Shown here piece by piece: positions 7,422 through 64,000 of a stretch of 64,000 nt of DNA (positions are counted from its first letter, which is position 1; every line of letters begins with the position of its first letter). A program made the translations under genes and the position numbers. The notes under the pieces are model-generated. The model made no database searches and was not told the DNA's origin. It saw nothing but the letters and a program-made list of their open reading frames with translations. Source of the stretch: Trachythela sp. YZ-2020 (Eukaryota; Cnidaria; Anthozoa; Malacalcyonacea; Clavulariidae); the NCBI GenBank assembly GCA_016169945.1, contig JADLSH010000257.1:186001-250000 (forward strand). The letters run 5' to 3'.

Positions 7422-7490
7422 ATCTGCTCGACGGTCAACAATGTAATGAATATTGTATGGATAGATTATATTCTTATATGTTTACTTGCT

Positions 7491-7833
7491 CATAAGTCAT
7501 AAGTCATAAGTCATAAGTTATAGGTCATAAGTCATAAGTCATAAGTCATAAGTCATAAGTCATAAGTCATAAGTCATAAGTCATAAGTCATAAGTCATAA
7601 GTCATAAGTCATAAGTCATAAGTCATAAGTCATAAGTCATAAGTCACAAGTCACAAGTCACAAGTCACAAGTCACAAGTCACAAGTCACAAGTCACAAGT
7701 CACAAGTCACAAGTCACAAGTCACAAGTCACAAGTCACAAGTCACAAGTCACAAGTCACAAGTCACAAGTCACAAGTCACAAGTCACAAGTCACAAGTCA
7801 CAAGTCACAAGTCACAAGTCACAAGTCACAAGT
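7491..7833 (+). repeat. Heptamer array: CATAAGT then CACAAGT
   Basis: About 49 tandem 7-bp units. The left part (to about 7643) is CATAAGT with a TATAGGT variant near the start; the right part is uniformly CACAAGT. The array sits at the divergent centre of the inner element and abuts the ATPase frame directly, replacing its N-terminus. Confidence 0.95.
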
Positions 7834-21179: not shown

Positions 21180-23430
21180 ACAATACAATACAATAATACA
21201 ATATTTAATTGAACACTCCCCTTTGGGGCTTTTCAGTGACAATTATAAAGTGGTAATTACAATATAAATACTAATGTTGTAAGATACAATTTATGTAATT
21301 GTAAGCTATGGCTATAATCTACTATATGTGGTATTGCATGCGTTATGATAAAAAACTATCAAGTAAAATTCTCTTTAGTTTATATTTGAATTCACTAATT
21401 GTCTTACTAGCTTTAAGTTCTGGGCACAAATCATTCCATAGTTTGACCGCACGATAATAAAAAGTCCTCTGGCCTGACGCCCTTTAAAAATTGGAGTGTT
21501 CAAATGCGAGGCTTGTCTGGTTAACCTTCCACTTACACTATCTCTACTTACAAATTGCGAACTTAGATAGGCGGGCGCAGTTCCCGCCATACACTTAAAA
21601 ACCATGACCGGTTTCGCGATAATAGAGTTTAAGTTTTACAGGTATCCATCTTAGATCCTTTAATACAGGAGTTATATGGTCGTATTTCCTGGTTCCACTA
21701 ACGATACGAGCTGCGAAATTCTGTATGCCTTGAAGTTTTCGTATATTCCGATCAGAAGTATTTGACCGAACGTTTGAGCAGTAATATAACTTGCTAAACA
21801 CAAGTGAATTAATTACGGTAATAAGTAGCAGCTCGTTCTTAAAAGCATGTTTTACTCGACTTATTTGACCCAAGCTAGACATACAGGATGACACAGTTTT
21901 AAAGATATATTCATCAAAATTCAGATTACGGTCAAACATAACTCCCAAGTCTTTCACAGACTGTGCTGGAGTTAGTTCTTTGCCTAATAAAGAAAGATGA
22001 AAATCCGGGAGTTTGGACACCATTTGTCTGCTTCCGTACACGATCAATTAAGTTTTATCGGGATTAAATTAAAGCAAATTTTCGAAACACCAATTTCTGA
22101 TCCTGCGGATCTGATCCATCGTTCATGCATGTCGGCAGTAGCAATTTGGGCATCGTGTACGGGGAAACGCATGTAAAGTTTAGTATCGTCAACATAGCAA
22201 TCGGTAGAGCAACTTAGGAAGATCATTGATATATATATACTAAAGAGTACTGGCCCCGGCCAAAATACTTCCTTGCGGGACTCCGTTTACGACAGATAAC
22301 GAGTTGGAGAGAGCTGAATGAATACGCACAACCTAGCCTGCGTGGCAGGCGTTCTATTGTTGGGGAGGGAGTTTTGTTTAGAGCGCGCTCTATTTTTTTG
22401 AGAACGCACGCTAGGTGAGAAGTTAGGGGGAGGGGGGAGAAAAGGCGAAGGGAGAGGCGACGACAACGGTTGGACAAATAGCTGTTGAACCATTGTAAAA
22501 CTGATCGCAACATGCCTACATCTTGAAGTTTATTGAGTAAAATACTGTGATTTATGCTGTCAAAAGTCTTGCTCATATCTAGCAAAACGATAGCTGTTGT
22601 TTTCCATTTATCCATGGCATTTAAAATAAAATCAGTTGTTCGAATTAATGATGTCTCGGTTGAGTGCCACTTTTTATTGCCGCTTTGTTTTCTTGTTAGT
22701 CGGTCATTTACTACCAAAAGGGCATAATTGATTCAAAGCAGTTCTCTCACAAATCTTTGAGAGTATGGGCAACAGTGATATTGGCGGTTTTCCTGTGGGC
22801 ATAGATAAAATAATCAAAAGGATTTTGTGCGAATTTATAGTTGCATTCTTGAGCAAGTGATTGTATTTTAACAACAGTCTTCTCACCAACCGAGTTAAAA
22901 AACTTATTAGAGTCATTTGCTACCACTTTCTCATCCTCAGTAAAAGTTTTCCTGCTAACTGATTTCCTTGGGATACAACGACGGATAATTTTCCAGAGAT
23001 GACCAATATTGTCAATATTATTGGGGTTGCTTTCTATCACACTAGCAACGTATTTCCCTATTTCTTAGGCATTTCCCTATCTCTTAGGATCGACCAACGC
23101 ATGTCCAACTGCTGTTCACATGGAACCTTTCTCCACTTCAGTCTTCAAAGTTCTCATTTGAATATTTGCTACTACCACCAAGATCTGCACCATATTCTTT
23201 CTCTGCGAGCCTCAATTCACGTCTTACTTCTCGTTTAAAATTTCTATAACCTGACCACGCCAGCGGATCGTTAGACTTCCTAGCTAATTTTCTCCATGTA
23301 TCACTAGTTCTCATCAACGCACGAATCTCGCCAGTCACGCAGGGATTTTGACGGCCTCGCAGTTTAACACGCTTAACGGGTGCGTGTGCATCTAGTATCG
23401 GATTGAATAAGGAGTGAAATGCATTCAATT
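21180..23430 (-). pseudogene. Decayed CR1/L2-type LINE, minus strand
   Basis: Read from 23430 down there is an endonuclease-to-RT linker (DAHAPVKRVKLRGRQNPCVTGEI), then RT pieces with the motifs LLDMSKTFDSINHSILLNKL, GVPQGSIL and a YVDDTKLYM-type active site. The C-terminal frame (21595-22047) has VKDLGVMFDRNL. Frames are shifted several times. The 3' end carries CTGAAAAGCCCC...GGGAG followed by TATTG units, comparable with the 3' ends at 55075 and 32350. An insertion of foreign sequence sits at about 22325-22490. Inactive. Confidence 0.85.
22325..22490. repeat. Short repeat inserted in the decayed LINE
   Basis: Begins CCTAGCCTGCGTGGCAGGCG and includes GAGCGCGCTC and GAACGCACGCTAGG, giving imperfect inverted tips. 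It splits the RT sequence between the 'WFNSYL' region and GVPQGS. Probably a small SINE or MITE. Confidence 0.5.
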
Positions 23431-32059: not shown

Positions 32060-32425
32060 TGCATCTAGATTACATTCAGCAATATCCTACAAGACATAAT
32101 AAAGATCTGACCATACCTAAATTTAAAACAAGTACTGGCCAAATGTCTTTTTATTATCGAGCGGTAAAAAGTGGAACAGTCTGGACGAACATTTAAAGTC
32201 TATTAATAATATTAAACAATTTAAGGTAACGCTTAAAAAACATTTGCTTGAACATTAAGAGTCTTTCGTGGATGTTAAAATCTTATCTCTCATTATTATC
32301 AGTCACTAAAAACATATTGTAAAGTTTAACTGCTACAAAGATTTTATCACTAAAACTTGTAAATACATCCTGAAAAGCCCTACTGGGAGTATGTATATTC
32401 ATAATAATAATAATAATAATCTACC
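32060..32425 (+). pseudogene. 3' end of a CR1/L2-type LINE
   Basis: A short frame reading KWNSLDEHLKSINN and FKVTLKKHLLEH, then a stop (about 32165-32260), is the usual C-terminus of such RTs. The 3' end CTGAAAAGCCCTACTGGGAG (about 32371) matches the 3' ends at 55075 and 21225. A (AAT)n tail follows at about 32401-32420. Confidence 0.8.
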
Positions 32426-32460
32426 ATTGAAAAATAAATTAATATTATATATAGTACAAT

Positions 32461-32504
32461 CTGCAGACATGCATGTTTCGGCGTCCAACGCCTCGTCAGT
32501 GCAG
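32461..32504 (-). ncRNA. Type I hammerhead ribozyme, copy 1
   Basis: On the minus strand from 32504: stem I 5' strand CTGCA, core CTGACGA (32499-32493), stem II GGCGT/ACGCC with loop TGG, GAAA (32479-32476), stem III ACAT/ATGT with a GC loop, cleavage triplet GTC, stem I 3' strand TGCAG. All invariant core bases are present and all three helices pair perfectly. Predicted cleavage is 3' of the C at 32466. The very short stem III is typical of ribozymes that work best as dimers. Confidence 0.9.
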
Positions 32505-32743
32505 CTTGGTATACGACTATACACGAGATGTCAACCGTATTTATACACATGAGCTTACTCTCACCAAGCGCATGTGGTACAACACGGTGACATCAATGCA
32601 TCTAGACATGCGCAAAGTGTCATGGAGCCAGAGTGCTCAAACGACCACAAGTGAAGTGAGCTTTGCATTATCGCTAGTAGATACCCATTAGCTTTGCTAG
32701 AGTGCTCAACAACACTAAAGTGAAGGAGCGTAAATAGTACAAT

Positions 32744-32787
32744 CTGCAGACATGCATGTTTCGGCGTCCAACGCCTCGTCAGTGCAG
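32744..32787 (-). ncRNA. Type I hammerhead ribozyme, copy 2
   Basis: Identical in core and helices to copy 1, exactly 283 bases further. Predicted cleavage is 3' of the base complementary to 32749. Cutting at both sites would release a 283-nt monomer. Confidence 0.9.
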
Positions 32788-33059
32788 CTTGGTATACGTC
32801 TATACACGAGATGTCACATGTCAACCGTATTTATACACATGAGCTTACTCTCACCAAGCGTATGTGGTACAACACGGTGACATCAATGCATCTAGACATG
32901 CGCAAAGTGTCATGGAGCCAGGTGCTCAAACGACCACAAGTGACGTGAGCTTTGCATTATCGCTAGTAGACACCCATTAGCTTTGCCAGAGTGCTCAACA
33001 ACACTAAAGTGAAGGAGCGTAAATATTATATATATGTATATATACATATAGCAGATATG

Positions 33060-33405
33060 GCCCACCAATACCAAATTAATGGTTGCAACCAACCATTTCA
33101 TATTAGTTGCAATAACCAATTATTTATGGTTATAACCAATTTGTAATTGGTTATTTCTAAATGTCACCAGTTATACCTCATGGATACCAAATAGTAATTG
33201 GTCAATTTAACCAAATTTTATTGGTTGTTACGAAATAAATTTGGTTGTTTTGAACAATATGATATTTCATTTCCTTTTTACCAATTATTAATTGGTTAAT
33301 ATAATCATTATAATTTGGTTTTAACCAATTTAATTGGTTGAATCAACCATTTCTAATGGTTGTAACTTTTTTTTTGGTCATTTTAACCATTCAGTTTTTA
33401 AAGTG
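33060..33405. repeat. Cluster of AACCAATT/AATTGGTT motifs
   Basis: About twenty short motifs of the type AACCAAT or ATTGGTT in both orientations are packed into 340 bp, giving many possible hairpins. No coding frame. Looks like an end of a DNA element or a degenerate palindromic satellite. Confidence 0.6.
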
Positions 33406-33724
33406 TAGATCACGCAACAATCAGCGCTTTTCCCCGCCCGTGTTTTACACCGCCCTGCACCGCCCTATATATAAGCGCCCTGGTCGAAAATTTCGGCTTG
33501 CGTCCTTCGGTTTGTCTGTCTCTCTTCTCCGCAGAACCACCTTAACTATTTACAAGTAGGTTACATCAAGTTTCCTGTAAGAGGGAAGCGAGCGCAAGGG
33601 GAATGACGGGAAGATTGAAATGAACGCCAGAAGCATAGAATAAGGATATATAGAACATGTGCGCATGCGCGAGGTCCGCCATCTTCCTAGCCGGTCGATC
33701 GCACCCAGTCGTAAAGAAAACAAT

Positions 33725-34246: not shown

Positions 34247-35335
34247 TCAGTTTTGGAAGGATATTGGCGCTTCAGAGTTTATCGTTTACACTATTCAGGA
34301 GGGGTATAAGATTCCTTTCCGGGAGACACCGAAGCCAGCCGTTTTTGCGAATAACTCATCCTCCTTAAATAATTGGCAGTTTCTGTTTGATTCTATAACC
34401 CAATACACTGACAGAATTGTTCAGGTAGAAAAGCATGACTAAATAGTATGTAGCCCGCTTTCTGTAGCTTCACAACCGAGTGGTAAAAAGCGACTGATTC
34501 TGGATTTGAGATATGTGAACAATCATGTTTATAAGCAAGTTACAAAATTTGAAGATTGGCGAACGGCCTTACAATTTTTTGATAAGGGCTCCTTTTTCAC
34601 GAAATTTGATTTGAAATCTGGTTATCATCATTTGGATATTTTCTCAGAGCATCAGCCCTACCTGGGTTTCAGTTGGGTGATGGATGGCAAGAAATCCAGT
34701 TATTTAATGTTTTCGGTATTGCCATTTGGATTGACTTCAGCTCCATATATATTCACCAAATTGTTGCGGCCCATAGTAAAATATCGGCGATCCCAAGGGA
34801 TTAGCAATGTAGTATATTTGGATGATGGCTTTGAGGCCACGATAGCCCTTCAGAATTTAATTACTCATCCGAGGACATCTGCTCGAAAGTTGGCATCTGC
34901 CGTTGGGATGATCATTTCCATGGGGTCTGTTATAGGCAATTTAACTCGTATTATGAGTCGTCATTAACAGATGTCAATCGCTTTCTCTTCTTCATGGGAT
35001 TCTCTATTTGACTTGGATCGCTATTGCATTCTAGAATCACAGTTTTTGCAAACCAATATTAAATAAGTTTGTAAATTGGCGTTCCTTTACCCCTAGACCA
35101 TTTTGCAACAGAGCATTCTTTCCCGACGCTAGTGAGACAGCTTGCGCTGTAAATTCAGGGGATGGGAACATGGTAGCACATCGTATGTTTAATGCATTGG
35201 AAAGGGCAGAAAGTTCTACTTTCAGGGAATCAGTTGCGATATAATTTGCCTTAGAATCTTTTGAACCCATTTTACAGCAGTCCAGGGTTAAACACATTCC
35301 ATTCTTATTTATCATGTCGTACACAAAGATTTTGT
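34247..35335 (+). pseudogene. DIRS reverse transcriptase and RNase H
   Basis: The N-terminal RT part (FWKDIGASEFIVYTI) starts near 34247. A stop near 34440 separates it from the open 153-codon frame (34506-34967) with FDLKSGYHHLDI, LPFGLTSAPYIFTKLLRP and the active site YLDDG. The palm is intact but the thumb is fused to a deletion joint (LITHPRTSARKL). RNase H remains near 35095-35300 (DASETACAVNSGD, ESSTFRESVAI) with stops. The order RT-RNase H and the YLDDG form are DIRS-type. Confidence 0.85.
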
Positions 35336-40187: not shown

Positions 40188-42716
40188 AGTAGGTAACACC
40201 CCCCTCCCATCTGGGATCGGAAGTAATTAGTATTCAGGATATGTTTAGAGTGATGACGTCATAGGGTGTTCGTATTTTCCCGCCATATGACGTCAGCAAC
40301 GTACATCCATCGTAATTTTCCCACCATATGACGTCATTTGCGTACGTAAAGGATTAGAAGTAATTAGTATTCGTGTGAGGTCATTTGCGTGCGTACGCGT
40401 GCGTGCAGAGCGTAATAATCAGAGCGTTTTGTGTTTTTATTTTATTTAAATTACACACAACAATTTAAATGTTTCTTCTAATAAGAAAGTCGTTTTATAG
40501 TTTTGACTTTATTGTTCGTTAGCCATGGTTTCTTTAACAAAGCCTCGGACCATAGGCTCGTCTTCGTGCAGATTCACCCACTTCATACGACCTGTAGATT
40601 GATGCCTTATTTTGACAGGTCAATAATGTTCGTCGTTGATGCAGACACCAGGACGACTAGGATCAAAACTATTGCGCGATGACTTATACATCTCTATGAT
40701 AGCATATCCTTCGGGAATGTTACGGACCTCCTGTGCTCCCAGCGTGTAATTTTGCCACTCGGGGATAGTTGCATCCGACCAGGTAATATAACGCTGACGT
40801 TTAGGTTGTTTTCTTCTAGACTTGGTTTCGATGCCAGAGACTGGGGTGGGTGTAGTACTCTTCACTTTAGTTTGGGTGGTGAAGAGATAAACATGGCAGT
40901 CGCCAAATAGGTCCCCAAGAACTTGCTATAGGCTGGTGTGTCAGGTTTGTTATCCACCAACAAGTATCCAAACGGTTTTTCGGTCTCTTTGTAATTGGCG
41001 TTCATAAAGTGGATTCTATTCTTATCAAACATTCGTTCTCCAACAATTCCAATTTGTTTCCTGTCACTAGGACTTTGGAAGAGAGCAAGATATTGGGCAT
41101 TTCGGCTGATATCTGTATTAAATTTCCCCCTAGGAAACATGTTCTGAAGCAAAGGATAACACTAGCGTTTCTATGACGACCCTGAGTAAGTAATCGAGCT
41201 ACCATAGGACTGTCTGTTGCTTCGGCCATCAGATCATCCAGTATGATTATGTTGTTGTACTTGGTATTAATCTCACTCAGATCCTCCGACAGCTCTGGCA
41301 AACCTCTCTCAAATCGGATGCTTTTCCCAAGGGATTTTTTCAAATCGTCGTAACGATCTTGCCATTGATTGTAGCACCAAAGGATATGAATGTGTTTCTT
41401 TTCCTCATACACGATACGATTTTTCCCCAAAATTTGTTGGACAAAATACGTTTTTCCACTTTGGCTCGGACCCACGACCAATAGCGAAAATTTATGGCGG
41501 AAAATTCCGGATAGGGCTTAGTAATCAAAGATGCTGTTACTTTTGGTACGGTTTTTGTTGGTTTTAGTATAGAACTTGTTTTCTTTCGAACACATCTCAT
41601 TTCTTTTAGCATATGTGCCGGTCGTGTAGGTAGTAAACTTGAGTTGTGGTTATGCGGTGTTGAGAACCTCGCCCTTCCTAACCACTTTTTCCTTTCATCT
41701 CCGTATAAGTTATGTACTTGACGCAAATGATCACTTATATATCGAAGACCAGGCTTGTTACAGAAAGGACAGTCTCTTTTGTGCTTGTAGCCTTGTAGGG
41801 CATGTTTGACACTTGGAAAGGGATTTCCAAGACGATGTCTCAACAGCTTCAACGCATGGGTCTGAAATTTCGATGACGACTGATAATGAGTCAGAAACTG
41901 AAGAAACAGAAGAAATGGATCCTTGGATGCCATTGATAGAAGAAGCAAAGCAAAGAAGTAATACAGCTTTTGAGGAAATGAAAGAGAGCCTTATAAACAG
42001 CGGTCTTGATGAGCAATCTGCTACCGACAAAGCTTACACCAATATTCTGCCTGAACTCCAGAAGGAACTTGAAAATATTTAATAGATAATTACTGAGGCC
42101 AACGGCATTCTTGAATATATTGCAGCCAGCTGAGGCCGAAGGCCGAAGCTGGCTGCAATATATTCAAGAATGCCGTTTGGCCGAAGTAATTATCTATTAG
42201 AATTACTGACGTTAGTCAAACGTATTGTTCTTTCTCTTTACGATCGCAGCGATTTTAGGCATCGCCCCCAATTCAAAAGTAATTGTTTTAGGTAAGGTTC
42301 TAAGATTAGGGTACTGCTTGTTGGACTGAATCACAATGAGCTAGCGTGTTCTTTCAAATCCCACAAGCGCAAGCCAAGAAATTGCAGCATAAATACAACA
42401 GCTGAATATGCGCATGTTAGAGCAAACGCTTGCCGCGACATGTCTTGCGCGGCGACTCCAGACGAAAGTTATGACGCAATCTTCATCAAGAACGGAAAAG
42501 CAACAGAACAGAGCAATGCAGAGATGCGCTAATTCTAAGTGCAGAATTAATTAAACAGAATAAGACACGAATAAAAACTTTTTAATGTGTTTTGCGCATG
42601 TGCCGATGTTCGATAAAATACCACAAGCGCAAGGTAGACTATTGCTGTATAAATTCAACAGATTGAAATAAGGATTCAGTTCACCTTCAGGTGGCAAAAC
42701 TTGAGGCACCCGAGGC
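40188..42716. mobile_element. Truncated copy of the AGTAGG Polinton-like family (unit 1)
   Basis: The left terminus AGTAGGTAACACCCCCC at 40188 follows CGCCCC, as in the complete copy at 44427. The element is cut at 42716 by the duplication joint, so the right terminus is missing. It lacks the central 370 bp. Confidence 0.85.
40509..41948 (-). pseudogene. Zinc-finger/ATPase module, unit 1 copy
   Basis: Same gene as 44746-46066, described there. Here an additional single-base deletion near 41153 splits the ATPase into two frames (41002-41481 and 40862-41152). The start region is fused to unrelated sequence by the 370-bp deletion near 41806. Confidence 0.8.
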
Positions 42717-48420: not shown

Positions 48421-48518
48421 ATTGATTATTGTGTAATTATCGCTATACACAGAGCTGTACATGAATATCACACATTTTACTAGCCTGCGTGCCGTCTCAA
48501 CATTTTACAAGAGTCAAG

Positions 48519-49247
48519 ATGGAAGCAGACGCCAAAGCGTATGACGAACTAAACCAACCACAATACGAAATTGGTTGTAAATTTATCAGTGAAGTAAACA
48601 TCTCCCTAGGAGCCAACGTGCTTGATATGGGCTGTGGTACTGGCAATCTCACTAAATATATCGCTGATATCGTTGGCTCCGATGGTCAGACGGTGCGAAT
48701 CGATCCCGATGATGCGAGAATCAAAATTGCTGAAGACAAATATAAAGAAGTCAGTAATCTTCAGTTCCATGTTGGTAATAGTGTGACTGGATTTCCACAG
48801 GATAGCGATCCGTATTATGACGTCCATATAACCATGAATGCATTCCATTGGTTTCCAAACGATCAGAAAAAGATTTACATACAGAAAGCGTACCAATCTA
48901 TAAAACCTGGAGGAAAACTGGCCATTTTGTGTGCGGATAAAATAGAGAGCGATCGAGGAGATCAATTTGAACTTCCCGATGTATTTTTCTTTTCCCAAGA
49001 TGAACTTCGAAATCTGTTTCAAGAAATTGGCTTATTCAGCAATGTTGTGGTCAAGTAAGTCGTTTATCAAGCACATTTTAAGTCGAATGAAATCTTTAAG
49101 CTTTGGGTCAAAGCAACGACACATCATTTAGGCGAGTTTGATCCAGCCTTTGTGAAACAGGTTATGGCTGACCTGATTACTTTTCACGATGATGGCAGTG
49201 TTACATACAAATTACCAAGTATTTGTATCACCGCAAGTAAAGAATAA
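48519..49247 (+). pseudogene. SAM methyltransferase copy with a single nonsense change
   Basis: From ATG 48519 the frame matches the intact copy at 59160 almost throughout: DMGCGTGN in motif I, DDARIKIAEDKY, NAFHWFPND and LKPGGKLAILC-type motif. It reads TAA at 49056-49058 where the intact copy has CAA after NVVVK. The remaining 60 codons to 49247 are open. Loss of the C-terminal quarter probably inactivates it. The stop change also creates AAGTAAGT, which resembles a splice donor. Confidence 0.85.
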
Positions 49248-50387: not shown

Positions 50388-50994
50388 ATGGAAACAGACG
50401 CCCAAGCGTATGAAGAACTAACCCAACCACAATACGAAGCTTGAAAGTGTTTGATATGGGCTGTGGTACTGGCAATCTCACTATATATATCGCTGACTTT
50501 GATGGTCAGGCCGATTCCGATGATGCGAGAATCAAAATTGCTGAAGACAAATATAAAGAAGTCAGTAATCTTCAGTTTCATGTTGATAATAGTGTGACTG
50601 GATTTCCACACGATAATGAGCCGTATTATGACGTCCATATAACCATGAATGCATTCCATTGGTCTCCAAACGACCAGAAAAAGATTTACATACAGAAAGC
50701 CTACCAATCTTTAAAACCTGGAGGAAAACTGGTCATTTTGTGTTGCGATAAACTTCGAGCAGATCAATTTGAACTTGTCGGTCTATATCTCCTGTCCCAA
50801 GATGAATTTCGAAAGCTATTTCAAGATGTGGGCTTATTCAGCAATGTCGTGGTCAAGCAATTCGTTTATCAAGCACATGATTTGAACGAATTAGATCAAA
50901 CCATTTTGAAACAGTTATTGGCTGAAAAGTTCACGATGATGGCGGTGTTACATCAAAAATACCGTTTATTTGTACCAGAGCCAGTAAAGAATAA
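50388..50994 (+). pseudogene. SAM methyltransferase copy with deletion, abutted by a LINE
   Basis: ATG 50388 starts METDAQAYEEL. A deletion after QYEA removes about 16 codons and shifts the frame; DMGCGTGN then lies in the frame from 50441. Further small deletions remove parts around IADIVGSDGQ and the region before the C-terminus. The family C-terminus SKE is reached in a shifted frame, with its stop at 50992-50994. A LINE begins within ten bases of this stop. Confidence 0.85.
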
Positions 50995-51000
50995 ATGGTC

Positions 51001-52095
51001 TTAAACGGGCCGAACCATGTAGAACAAAGCAATCGTGACTTTAATCGAGGTTTGGGTGAGAAAAACTCCCCGACCGACCTTGCACAGAAATCGCGCCTGA
51101 CTTCCAATCTAGTCGTTTCCAACAATGGACGCGTTGACAATGACCGTAAAGAAATTAACTCATCAGTTAAGGATAATCAATTATTTTTAAATACCGATAA
51201 TAGCTCAGCCAACCTATTACAAAGCCATAATAATAATCTGATCAATGGCATCAATTCCCCTGACGGTCAACATGTGAAAGTTAATTTGAATGCAAGGAAA
51301 TTGCTAAATATTATCGAACGCAAATCCCCACTTCAAGTACCTGGAGTGTCAGTTACTATGAATGAATTCGACAACAAGGTTGACACATATCCCATTATCG
51401 ATGGTCACAACTACAGTTTGAGGAACGTTAGTTCGTCAACCTTTAATGTTTTTAAAGATGTTCAATTTTTACCCCTAATCAGTCTCAACGAATCCCATGA
51501 TACCCCTCGTAACATGAAATCAAAAACGAGTAAGGCAAAGGCCAATTCGACCGAAGCTCATGTCCATAGGAATATGCATCGGCATAGTTTTCATAGAAGG
51601 AGGAAAACAGCAGCAAAAATAGATTTAATCGCATGGAAAATTTTCATCCTGTTCCCGAGAGGAGACGACCCCCAGACTGGCAGAATTACCTGTCACATGT
51701 TCGGCACAAAACAACATATCCACTCACGACATACCCCAAACCACGATCCCCCCAATTCCCTCACCCATGTTCGCTGAGACCGCTGATGGAGTTCTCTTTC
51801 GAATACCCGTTAGAATAACCCCACGTAACCAAGAGCGTTCGATTTCAAACCGGAATTTCAGTAACACCCTCGACCTAGTTCAAAGGAGAAATACAACAAT
51901 ACATCACGGGCCGAACCATGTAGATGCTAAGTACGACCCGATCCCTGTACTTATAACAAATCATACCCGGCCATATAACACTGCTAGAAAAAACGGCAAT
52001 GTGGTCAATAGCAATAATATTGCTGTTAAAATAACCTCCATTGACGAACTTGCAACAACAACTCCTATTACTCTTTCAGGCCTAAGATTGTTCAC
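51001..52095 (+). pseudogene. LINE ORF1 region
   Basis: Three overlapping frames (to 51777, to 51818 and 51767-52099) together look like one Asn/Ser/Arg-rich ORF1 with a basic stretch (HRHSFHRRRKTAAK). No zinc knuckle or esterase motif was seen. At least one frame change near 51770. Function by position only. Confidence 0.5.
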
Positions 52096-59060: not shown

Positions 59061-59159
59061 TATTGATTATTGTGTAATTATCGCTATGCACAGAGCTGTA
59101 CATGAATATCACACATTTTACTAGCCTGCGTGCAGTCTCAACATTTTACAAGAGTCAAG

Positions 59160-59891
59160 ATGGAAGCAGACGCCAAAGCGTATGACGAACTAAACCAACC
59201 ACAATACGAAATTGGTTGTAAATTTATCAGTGAAGTAAACATCTCCCTAGGAGCCAACGTGCTTGATATGGGCTGTGGTACTGGCAATCTCACTAAATAT
59301 ATCGCTGATATCGTTGGCTCCGATGGTCAGACGGTGGGAATCGATCCCGATGATGCGAGAATCAAAATTGCTGAAGACAAATATAAAGAAGTCAGTAATC
59401 TTCAGTTCCATGTTGGTAATAGTGTGACTGGATTTCCACAGGATAGCGATCCGTATTATGACCTCCATATAACCATGAATGCATTCCATTGGTTTCCAAA
59501 CGATCAGAAAAAGATTTACATACAGAAAGCGTGCCAATCTTTAAAACCTGGAGGAAAACTGGCCATTTTGTGTGCGGATAAAATAGAGAGCGATCGAGGA
59601 GATCAATTTGAACTTCCCGATGTATTTTTCTTTTCCCAAGATGAACTTCGAAATCTGTTTCAAGAAATTGGCTTATTTGGCAATGTTGTGGTCAAGCAAG
59701 TCGTTTATCAAGCACATTTTAAGTCGAATGAAATCTTTAAGCTTTGGGTCAAAGCAACGACACATCATCATTTAGGCGAGTTTGATCCAGCCTTTGTGAA
59801 ACAGGTTATGGCTGACCTGATTACTTTTCACGATGATGGCAGTGTTACATACAAATTACCAAGTATTTGTATCATCGCAAGTAAAGAATAA
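59160..59891 (+). CDS. Class I SAM-dependent methyltransferase, intact copy
   Basis: 243 codons from ATG 59160 without introns. Motif I is DMGCGTGN (about residue 36), followed by GIDPDDARIKIAEDKY (acidic end of beta-2), then FHVGNS, ITMNAFHWFPND and LKPGGKLAILCADK (motif III region). This is the Methyltransf_11/25 layout of small-molecule methyltransferases such as the juvenile hormone acid and trans-aconitate types; the substrate is unknown. The start chosen is the ATG shared by all copies (MEADA). It is the only family copy here open from start to stop. The lack of introns and the repeated flanks suggest local duplication of a compact unit, perhaps originally retroposed or captured. Confidence 0.9.
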   Translation: MEADAKAYDELNQPQYEIGCKFISEVNISLGANVLDMGCGTGNLTKYIADIVGSDGQTVGIDPDDARIKIAEDKYKEVSNLQFHVGNSVTGFPQDSDPYYDLHITMNAFHWFPNDQKKIYIQKACQSLKPGGKLAILCADKIESDRGDQFELPDVFFFSQDELRNLFQEIGLFGNVVVKQVVYQAHFKSNEIFKLWVKATTHHHLGEFDPAFVKQVMADLITFHDDGSVTYKLPSICIIASKE

Positions 59892-61355: not shown

Positions 61356-62003
61356 CTGTATTTATATATGTCACAATAAATGTTGTAAAAACACTGTGTT
61401 GTATGCTTTTTCGTTGCTATATGCGTCGCTAAGTCATTATAAAGCGATCCACGAATTTACATATTATTGAGATACCTCACTTGCCTTTTAACCTTTGTGG
61501 TGAAACGGTGAAATGGAGAACATAGATATAATTTATGACGAGTTGAAACGAAATGAGAAAAGTGTCTTACTAAATACATGTTTGCGAACCGAATATATAA
61601 ACGTATAACTCTAAGTCAAAGCTTTCATTTTATTACCAATAATACATTTAACAAGTAATTAAATCTAGTTTTGCATAGTACATTTTGTACTTTAAATCAT
61701 TAAACCGGTGATTAACACAGCCAAACAGTCATCTCCCCAGACACGCCTGAGCGAACACAAACCAGATAACCTTAAGCAAACAGGCTTTACTTTGTAAGAT
61801 ACTGTATGATGTCCTAAGATAGTGTATGATATCTTAAGATACCGTGTATGATATCCTAAAATGATATCTTAAGATACTGTATGATCCCTTTCTCTAACCT
61901 TAACCCCAACCCTAATTCTGATACTTAAACCATTTTCATTGACCTCACAAAGTATAATTATACTGAAATCGAGAAATTCGTATATATCTTTTGATAATTT
62001 GGT
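61356..62003. other. Non-coding stretch with AAGATAC repeats
   Basis: No gene. At 61790-61890 short imperfect repeats of TTAAGATACTGTATGAT occur about five times, followed by CTAACCTTAACCCCAACCCTAA, a degenerate telomere-like phrase. Confidence 0.55.
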
Positions 62004-62019
62004 GGCTCTGAAAAGAGCC
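62004..62019 (-). terminator. Histone-type 3' stem-loop
   Basis: The minus strand reads AACCAAACC, GGCTCTTTTCAGAGCC, ACCA. The 16-mer is a perfect 6-bp stem with a TTTC loop and matches the metazoan histone mRNA stem-loop consensus, including A/C-rich flanks. It starts 21 bases after the stop codon of the RING-type gene (stop 62042-62040) on the same strand. A purine-rich phrase (CAAAAGATA) 10 bases further could serve as a U7-pairing element. Confidence 0.75.
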
Positions 62020-62039
62020 GGTTTGGTTGCGCTATGCCT

Positions 62040-62492
62040 TTACAGACTTAGCCATATACAACCACAACCACCACATTCAAAATAAACAGACAAGGCGGTA
62101 TCTCCGACCCCATGTTGGACACTTTCAATACACGAAATGTGTACTCTTGAGTGACAACAAGAGGTGGTTTTGCTGTCTTGACTGTTTATTTTTTTCACGC
62201 AGAACATACAGTGGTGATCGAGCTGTAATGACTGCCTGCAAAGGGCACAGCGCGTAAGGAGCTCTCCAGTTCTCGAGAAGGCCTCTATTTTCCATCTAGC
62301 CAGACACCAGCTGTGGCAAAGATGTCCACAGCAAGGCGTCGTTACGATCATCGTCGTTCCACAACGGATCTCTTCGAGGCAGAAATGACATTCCTCATCA
62401 TTTTCTGCCTTACCAATGATACCAAAAGTATCGACCAATCTTCGCTTTTCTAATTCTTGCTCTGGCGATGGTAACTGACCAACCTCTTCCAT
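62040..62492 (-). CDS. RING-type Cys-rich protein of the Polinton-like element
   Basis: 150 codons from ATG 62492. A charged N-terminal helix (PSPEQELEKRRLVDTFGII) precedes a RING-like module: C35-x2-C38, CCGHLCHSWC, then CALC. A second Cys/His cluster follows (HHCMFC, CCHSRVHISC, CGGCGC), so a double zinc module. RING proteins usually act as ubiquitin ligases; here this is inference. The frame also opens 12 codons upstream but without an ATG. It is uninterrupted, unlike its neighbours, and is followed by a histone-type stem-loop. It resembles the Cys-rich tail of the gene at 6467-7069 in spacing only. Confidence 0.65.
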   Translation of the reverse strand: MEEVGQLPSPEQELEKRRLVDTFGIIGKAENDEECHFCLEEIRCGTTMIVTTPCCGHLCHSWCLARWKIEAFSRTGELLTRCALCRQSLQLDHHCMFCVKKINSQDSKTTSCCHSRVHISCIESVQHGVGDTALSVYFECGGCGCIWLSL

Positions 62493-62919
62493 GGTCGAAA
62501 TCTCGCTTGGACTTTTTAGGGAAACCACTTCTCATTTTTATGTGTTCAACTTCAATTGTGTCCTTTTCGGAACGATAATTAGACCATTTAACGCTCTATT
62601 ATGTTTCTTTGTGAACTTGTCGGAACGAAAATTATCATCATTTGCTAATTATCCTCAAACGCCACCCTGATAGATCCATTATTTTCACCGACACAGATTA
62701 TCCTCAAACGCCGTCCTGATAGATCCATTATTTTCACCGACACAGATTATCCTCAAACGCCGCCCTGATAGATCCATTATTTTCACCGACACAAGGACGT
62801 CCGCGCGTTGTAGGTTTAGAGAATGTATGTTTTCAAATACGTCCTCTACAACTCCTAAAATGTGAATTCCAAAAAAACTCTGTAGAAATCTTTACCTTGA
62901 CAATGAGTCAACGTTTCTG
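62493..62919. other. Upstream region with a 49-bp tandem repeat
   Basis: Three direct 49-bp units lie at 62648-62696, 62697-62745 and 62746-62794 (ATTATCCTCAAACGCC... to CACCGACACAG). No other gene seen. Confidence 0.8.
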
Positions 62920-63715
62920 TGTGGTCTATGGTTTGATTTTTTCCCATTCTGTTAAACACGCTATAACCTTACTATACACTATATGTCTTCATCTTTGCTA
63001 TAATTTACCCACCCACAAAAATCGATTAGTCAATGATGATGTAGAATAAGGTTTGTCATTAGTAGGAATCAAAACTACGCATTTGCCAAGAGAGGGGTTC
63101 GAACCCTCGCGTGCTGAATGCACATTGGAACTTAAGTCCGATTAATGTATCAGCGTTAACAGGGGCTCTCGGGTCTATAAAAGTCCTGTGGTCTATGGTT
63201 TGATTTTTCCCATTCTGTTAAACACGCTATAACCTTACTATACACTATATATCTTCATCTTTGCTATAATTTACCCACCCACAAAAATCGATTAGTCAAT
63301 GATGATGTAGAATAAGGTTTGTCATTAGTAGAAATCAAAACTACGCATTTGCCAAGAGAGGGGTTCGAACCCTCGCGTGCTGAATGCACATTGGAACTTA
63401 AGTCCGATTAATGTATCAGCGTTAACAGGGGCTCTCGGGTCTATAAAAGTCCTGTGGTCTATGGTTTGATTTTTTCCCATTCTGTTAAACACGCTATAAC
63501 CTTACTATACACTATATGTCTTCATCTTTGCTATAATTTACCCACCCACAAAAATCGATTAGTCAATGATGATGTAGAATAAGGTTTGTCATTAGTAGGA
63601 ATCAAAACTACGCATTTGCCAAGAGAGGGGTTCGAACCTCGCGTGCTGAATGCACATTGGAACTTAAGTCCGATGAATGTATCAGCGTTAACAGGGCTCT
63701 CGGGTCTATAAAACT
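62920..63715. repeat. Three tandem 266-bp units with a tRNA-like 3' half
   Basis: Units start at TGTGGTCTATGG: 62920, 63187 and 63453. Each has, on the minus strand, CGGACTTAAGTTCC (anticodon-arm-like, TAA in the loop) and GAGGGTTCGAACCCC (T-arm and pol III B-box) ending CTTGGCA. The 5' acceptor and D arm of a tRNA-Leu are absent. This is a tandem array of tRNA-derived sequence rather than tRNA genes. Confidence 0.75.
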
Positions 63716-64000
63716 CCCGCCGGGACATAATTCAAAATGTCCCTGCGGGACTTTTTGTGTCCTGGAAATCCCGATACGCAAGATTTCTGGGGTACTCTCC
63801 ACCCAACGATAATACACGCATGTGGTTTTGAAAATCTCTATTTTTATAAAATGTTATGTTGTTCTTAAAATGAAACATTCACTGGTTAGCTTCGATGAAG
63901 GTAGGAGCTATAGCTATCGCTTAATCGTTGGTTTAACATAAGAAGACGCGAAAGGAATACTATATACTCTGCGAGATCACAACTCAGCAGCAGAATCTGA
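63716..64000. other. Window end, nothing recognised
   Basis: A short inverted phrase (TCCCGCCGGGA and CCCTGCGGGA) at 63711-63750 and AT-rich sequence; no conserved frame. Confidence 0.5.

Follow-up and report, generated by a model that had tools for sequence, protein, structure and literature searches.

The tandem dimer on the minus strand at 32454-33025 of the window, by which we mean the whole 64-kb stretch of DNA that was analysed, is on the evidence of its sequence and copies an insertion of a metazoan non-LTR retrozyme, and it represents a new sequence family. We consider it likely that this non-autonomous element is mobilised in trans by the reverse transcriptase/endonuclease of a Penelope-like element (PLE), acting from an internal start site that is marked by a hairpin. 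Comparison of the copies reveals a fixed start, a TA target, 5' truncation and the sharing of a module with a PLE-like element of the same genome; recognition of the hairpin by a PLE protein, and mobilisation in trans, are what we infer.

The element and its ribozymes

The dimer comprises two head-to-tail units, both read on the minus strand. Unit 1 (32454..32736, 283 bp) is 3'-terminal in the RNA sense, and unit 2 (32737..33025, 289 bp), the 5' unit, differs from it by a 7-nt insertion, a 1-nt deletion and 5 substitutions. An earlier reading of this DNA, made from the sequence only, had placed the dimer at 32454..33026; both units are indeed present, but the last base, 33026, belongs to the flank. 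As that reading had also noted, sequence is shared on the two sides: a perfect 13-mer direct repeat, AATATTATATATA, lies at 32441-32453, the outer flank of the RNA 3' junction, and again at 33022-33034. Up to 4 bases of the right copy can alternatively be read as the end of unit 2, so that the target-site duplication measures 9-13 bp according to the end that is chosen. No stop-free run in the dimer exceeds 89 aa, in agreement with the claim that it holds no protein gene, and its GC content is 46.2%. The proposal that the dimer is a metazoan retrozyme is therefore well founded, in that type I hammerheads, tandem units of 283 and 289 bp (within the range of about 150-450 bp expected for retrozymes), many dispersed copies, the lack of an ORF, a GC content below 50% and a direct repeat of more than 4 bp occur together. 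A plant-type LTR retrozyme, which would have a type III hammerhead and LTRs of about 350 bp, was considered and rejected in view of the type I topology and the 283-bp units.

At 32454-32510 and 32737-32793 on the minus strand lie two 57-nt hammerheads of the same sequence. Each has the core CUGACGA/GAAA/GUC, pairing in stems I-III and an open helix I, as in a type I hammerhead. The predicted cuts fall 3' of 32466 and 32749 and would give the 283-nt monomer deduced in the earlier reading. Both sides of stem II are changed between retrozyme A, as we call the present family, its sister family B and a variant found elsewhere in the genome (L021 1982-2266, plus strand), whose stem II, GGUGU/ACACC, is a compensatory change relative to A. 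A loose pattern for the core matches the window four times, twice in the dimer, against 0.95 expected; since 3 of 100 shuffled sequences match as often, the core alone proves little, and the assignment is supported instead by the paired stems in two identical copies and by the copies elsewhere in the genome. In the Rfam check suggested in the sequence-only reading, no hammerhead reached the gathering cut-off; Hammerhead type III alone was matched, at 19.7 and 19.6 bits where 48.5 would be needed.

The same reading had taken both hammerheads to be complete. For the invariant core and the paired stems of both copies this holds, but not for stem III as it was drawn: the energy model forbids 4 bp closed by a 2-nt loop, and permits 3 bp with a UGCA tetraloop. 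Stem III is a self-complementary palindrome, ACAUGCAUGU. When two ribozyme strands are cofolded, the predicted energy is -40.5 kcal/mol, with a shared stem III of 10 bp and both ribozyme cores formed, whereas the best fold of a single strand (-14.4 kcal/mol) lacks stem III and the ribozyme fold reaches only -11.9. Folding in silico thus makes plausible the suggested action as a dimer, in which the ribozymes would work as a pair sharing stem III.

Several other features of the window may be recorded here. Just to the left of the retrozyme, at about 32150-32420 (plus strand), the sequence looks by eye like a LINE-type 3' end with a (TAA)n tail, and to its right, at 33060-33420, ACCAATT repeats form a palindrome-rich block. 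A reverse transcriptase ORF (22223-22732, minus strand) has beside it 89 nt that are almost the same as eukaryotic 28S rRNA (22870-23176, minus strand), the two possibly representing an rDNA-targeting element or a captured piece of rRNA. A histone 3' UTR stem-loop at 61981-62024 (minus strand) scores above the Rfam cut-off, and the adjoining ORF at 62040-62531 (at least 130 aa) has no Pfam match. The ORF at 41005-41517 (minus strand) matches the poxvirus A32 ATPase family and might mark a Polinton-type element. Methyltransferase ORFs are present on the plus strand at 48465-49055, 50414-51001 and 59106-59888, the last having its best named relatives in the octocorals Paramuricea clavata and Dendronephthya gigantea, from which we take the host to be probably an octocoral. 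Two further tandem repeats comprise 49 copies of 7 bp (7490-7833) and 3 copies of 266 bp (62920-63717), each with 98% matches.

Genome copies and the start of reverse transcription

Copies were sought in the whole assembly (578 Mb, 396 contigs), where the retrozyme proves to be dispersed. At least 74 matches come from the 40 scored of 1195 candidates, and the exact 3' motif GTACAATCTGCAGACATGCATG occurs 201 times, the reversed control 0 times. The existence of further tandem copies, whose absence would have counted against the sequence-only reading, is borne out by ORF-less, head-to-tail units of about 280-290 bp at many sites. We sampled 38 stretches around listed matches and 20 loci from the first places of the motif list, the latter serving as copies not chosen for length. 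The repeat loci L001-L008 were excluded from the tables of unit distances, shared variants, junctions, families, start spacing and facing ends. The insertion of the window is itself met at three places whose flanks are alike (95-99% identity); it is a dimer at two of them and a trimer at the third, implying that units have been gained or lost after insertion. L009, L010 and L025, as same-site copies, were left out of the unit distances and shared-variant counts. Searches of a phage collection, and one exact scan of viral contigs, led nowhere.

Where on the RNA does copying begin? The sampled loci contain 75 exact motifs, a few of them duplicates of one site; 35 are internal unit junctions and the rest are outer ones, of which 39 end in ATA and 1 in TA. 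All 40 outer junctions fall at one RNA position, immediately after GUAC, where the element is joined to target TA. This position, 12 nt past the predicted hammerhead cut, corresponds in the window element to the RNA base at 32454, which we take as the start of reverse transcription. In the RNA sense the constant end reads ..CUGCAGAUUGUAC, and the next unit opens UAUUUACGCUCC. Genome-wide, TATATA immediately precedes 104 of the 201 exact motifs, while this context accounts for 0.16% of window positions. When arrays are found by similarity to the whole element and not by the motif, 27 of 40 begin at this same unit base, preceded by ..ATA, and the other 13 have a different start base (L021 is not included in this table). 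The opposite end varies. Among the 20 copies sampled without regard to length, of which L079 and L080 have common flanks, the best local matches make 14 shorter than one unit and 4 longer, with 2 unclear; the search motif spans the cut, so that copies ending within 12 nt of the constant end go undetected.

Target-primed reverse transcription is recognised by just this combination of a constant 3' end, a TA-rich target and 5' truncation of varying extent. From the insertion ends we conclude that copying of the retrozyme is target-primed, that it begins inside the RNA and that it crosses the cut site; an internal start 3' of the hammerhead cut is also what is expected of an element mobilised by a PLE. 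Insertions that begin beyond the cut site and continue through it rule out the cut linear monomer as template and leave either a circle or an uncut transcript.

The mean divergence of units is 3.3% within an insertion (48 pairs) and 5.2% between insertions (3074 pairs), and units of one insertion have 42 derived variants in common, compared with a mean of 6.0 and a maximum of 13 in 200 random pairings, although overlap was not matched in those pairings, which limits the comparison. Nine of the 42 variants are private to one insertion, and 203 sites are discordant. Repeated copying of a single template would produce such likeness, and so would gene conversion or uniform source arrays. That the template is an uncut tandem read-through transcript instead of a circle, with the hammerhead dispensable for insertion, is an alternative to which we give somewhat less than an even chance. 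Insertions whose start lies 12 nt beyond the cut, and which continue through it, can be understood in this way, a uniform source array would likewise yield similar units, and in the lizard PLE Poseidon hammerhead mutants left insertion in vitro unchanged, so that the ribozyme was not needed for it, according to excerpts of PMC11167929. The excess of common derived variants and the lower divergence within an insertion are, on the other hand, what a circle predicts, a prediction tempered by the discordant sites, the unmatched overlap and possible gene conversion.

The shared hairpin and a candidate partner

The flanks of the retrozyme copies contain many further hammerhead elements, and a hairpin of the form GCUC-(inner stem)-UU/UC-GAGC-ACUCU is common to the retrozyme and 14 further families. 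Eight of the 14 (C, D, E, F, G, K, N and P) have a full hammerhead pattern upstream of the hairpin; for the remaining 6, entry required only GAAA or CGAA upstream. The outer stem of the hairpin was part of the search pattern, the inner stem was not. Across 16 families, including A and B, 88.9% of cells are paired and the covariation is 0.308, against 0.164 in shuffled alignments and at most 0.133 in slid ones, and RNAalifold agrees with the hairpin. For the inner stem alone, with A and B omitted, 91.1% are paired and the covariation is 0.684, against 0.330 in shuffled and at most 0.176 in slid versions. No shuffle out of 500 reached the observed value on three of five measures, and 3 and 20 of 500 did so on the other two. 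The 14 families are not independent witnesses, however, since F, O and N are closely related.

Searched with a covariance model built from the other 14 families, the 64-kb window yields just two matches up to E = 1, one for each retrozyme unit. In unit 1 the hairpin (GCUC..GAGCACUCU) occupies 32697..32737 on the minus strand (24.7 bits, E 0.0003), 7 nt downstream in the RNA of the preceding unit's start site; in unit 2 the model match extends over 32986..33026 on the same strand (27.6 bits, E 4.6e-5). The spacing from start to hairpin is 7 nt in both retrozymes A and B, 8 nt in a family that we call PLE-C, and 7, 6 and 8 nt in families D, H and I. Up to E 5, no Rfam family matches the hairpin in the window, and in a limited search of the openly licensed PMC literature no paper was seen to describe this hairpin or a retrozyme start site.

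PLE-C, a copy of which surfaced during a look for an intact 5' end of another family, PLE-P2, is one of the hairpin families and has a coding sequence upstream (copy L098). By eye, we take this coding sequence to comprise a YRDD reverse transcriptase motif, a cysteine linker and a GIY-YIG-like C-terminus. The family is young and abundant, to judge from its 5035 candidates, the 129 scored all having at least 92% identity, and from open frames of up to 751 aa. Its parts follow the order ORF, hammerhead, AC/TA, hairpin, second end ACACG/TA and TA tract. Four copies were examined at their 3' ends: two short ends (L102, L105) read ..GCGAAAAAC and then pass into TA-rich DNA, and two long ends, extending past the hairpin (L103, L104), read ..CCTAAACCTACACG followed by TATATA, like the optional 'tail' of PLEs. 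The first PLE-C end lies 8 nt before the hairpin and the ends of A and B 7 nt before it, so that autonomous and non-autonomous elements agree in the order of hammerhead, start and hairpin. PLE-C thus provides what is expected if the retrozyme is mobilised by a PLE, namely a cis module shared with an autonomous PLE-like element of the genome.

Outside A and B, a PLE-like ORF precedes 15 of 50 hairpins, at a distance of up to 700 nt and on the strand of the hairpin; for the other 35 no PLE ORF lies upstream in the sampled DNA, 5 of them being in stretches that end just after the ORF. These 50 remain from the best 54 of 123 matches (77 loci) once three in L057 and one in L068, which overlap L056 and L053, are removed, and some overlap persists among them (L024/L025 and L067/L069).

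How secure is the placing of PLE-C among the PLEs? For its endonuclease part against that of family P2, which Pfam recognises (PF01541), hhalign gives a probability of 94.6 and an E-value of 6.6e-8, but profile comparison of its reverse transcriptase part with a PLE recognised by Pfam gives a probability of 12.3, below significance. Pfam finds neither RVT_1 nor GIY-YIG in pieces of PLE-C, a PDB sequence search led nowhere, and a fold search with the predicted model (pLDDT 68.2) returned no match at E <= 0.001. Its protein has 2302 and 4628 relatives at E <= 0.001, most of those among the matches listed being unnamed. Given an endonuclease that aligns, and reverse transcriptase, Pfam and fold searches that give no significant match, PLE-C likely belongs to the Penelope-like elements, although the name is not proven. 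Families P1 and P2 (L050, L051, L053, L056 and L057-L076) have endonucleases recognised by Pfam, P2 also having RVT_1; by eye their hammerheads lack stem III, and they end at TA tracts. At the 3' end, some copies of P2 have a tail of about 40 nt that ends ACACACAGTC before ATATA, and others lack it. As the closest partner of the retrozyme P1 and P2 were set aside, for although they share its TA targets, inspection of their 3' regions did not reveal the hairpin. Reverse transcriptase fragments in the window itself led nowhere, the one at 34443-34964 being nearest to Ty3-type reverse transcriptases.

Homology to PLE-C is found at 19 of 38 retrozyme loci, compared with 2 of 20 short loci, and is absent from the 64-kb window. 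With L009, L010, L025 and L080 omitted, 12 of 38 outer junctions face another 3' end across a TA tract, 6 of these ends being retrozyme and 6 PLE-C. For the four motifs that give these 12, the 201 control sites (TATATA in the window) yield 2, each of them at the retrozyme itself; with nine motifs, some of low complexity, they yield 13. In L102 and L103 the TA tract after PLE-C is followed by an inverted 3' end of retrozyme B. As PLE-C is very abundant, this adjacency may partly reflect chance or a shared preference for TA. At L033 (1000-1726) and L104, inverted pairs of retrozymes or PLEs, head-to-head or tail-to-tail, surround TA-rich spacers, for which priming on both strands or repeated targeting could be the source.

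Proposed mechanism and comparison with known systems

How might such an insertion arise? In the mechanism that we propose, a minus-strand transcript of a tandem copy would fold its hammerheads, probably paired through the 10-bp stem III, and, by analogy with the known class, may be self-cleaved to monomers of 283 nt, with a host ligase then closing them. The PLE reverse transcriptase/endonuclease would recognise the hairpin just 3' of the start site and nick the DNA at a TA-rich site, whose 3' end (..ATA) could then prime on the RNA UAU that adjoins GUAC. Copying would run from this internal start through the uncut or resealed cleavage site, often stopping early and sometimes making more than one round.

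Other origins can be weighed against the same observations. Retrozymes A and B carry the PLE module and could be merely truncated 3' ends of a PLE whose autonomous copy is unseen, with no independent retrozyme lineage, but this is unlikely when complete, ORF-less units of about 280-290 bp recur head-to-tail at many sites. A LINE, to which the LINE-like 3' end nearby (about 32150-32420) hints, would explain 5' truncation and target-primed insertion equally well; that a LINE and not a PLE moves the retrozyme is nevertheless distinctly improbable in view of the RNA-internal start with a conserved hairpin beyond it, as in PLE-C, and of PLE 3' ends at the same kind of TA tracts. An ordinary satellite, spread by unequal exchange and segmental DNA duplication with the hammerhead as a fossil, would suit the three occurrences of the window site with common flanks (95-99% identity), one of them a trimer, but is scarcely credible when the same exact junction recurs at many sites whose flanks visibly differ, with the other end varying among them.

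We return, then, to mobilisation by a PLE from the hairpin-marked start, for which a wider reading may be offered. The hammerhead, with a start site 6-8 nt before the covarying GCUC..GAGCACUCU hairpin, could be the start signal of a whole PLE clade, and the retrozymes ORF-less riders that keep just this module on a small RNA circle, on which a telomerase-like reverse transcriptase would start at one point and could run round to leave tandem insertions in TA tracts; we would put the chances of this at about even. The partner of the retrozymes of corals, mussels and axolotl has been proposed to be a PLE or a LINE (PMC7229834, in excerpt). As far as the consulted parts of two reviews go, that of 2020 states that no conserved motif is known from which the autonomous partner of retrozymes could be deduced (PMC7761336), and that of 2024 makes the partner proposal again, with the suggestion that retrozymes are reduced PLEs in origin (PMC11722881). 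If the wider reading is true, the hairpin is the missing conserved motif that ties animal retrozymes to an autonomous partner, and its covariance model could help in the search for such partners in other animals. To the question of which enzyme copies animal retrozymes, a single genome here contributes a base-exact start, an adjoining covarying hairpin and a young, abundant candidate partner that has the same module.

In the excerpts of PMC7229834 (Cervera and de la Pena 2020), metazoan non-LTR retrozymes have a type I hammerhead, tandem units of 170-400 nt, no ORF, low GC, many copies and a target-site duplication of more than 4 bp. The window element resembles them in all these traits, and also in sharing its genome with PLEs; it differs from the known metazoan retrozymes in its new sequence family, and here in addition the fixed internal start, the TA target and the covarying hairpin can be seen. 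The satellite retrozymes of amphibians, as described in the same excerpts, are similar in their weak stem III, palindromic loop and dimeric action, and dissimilar in sequence, size (330-350 bp) and host.

Among PLEs, hammerheads without stem III are described in part of PMC7761336 and are matched by eye in P1 and P2, whereas A and B differ in having a palindromic 10-nt stem III and the hairpin module. The Penelope elements of Adineta vaga, from what excerpts of PMC3846280 report, also show partial tandems, an optional 3' tail and inverted neighbouring copies, but are autonomous, with reverse transcriptase and endonuclease ORFs and pLTRs. In Poseidon from Anolis, reverse transcription starts internally, at two sites 3' of the hammerhead cut, and insertion is into AT-rich DNA (Frangieh et al. 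2024, PMC11167929, in part). Poseidon is autonomous and has an AC-rich stem loop, in contrast to the window retrozyme, which lacks an ORF and has the GCUC..GAGCACUCU hairpin, of which the consulted parts of that paper give no description. The two are alike, so far as that partial source goes, in their hammerhead, in an internal start past the cut, in an AT-rich target and in an optional tail, and the internal start of Poseidon finds its match in the 12-nt tail of the window retrozyme.
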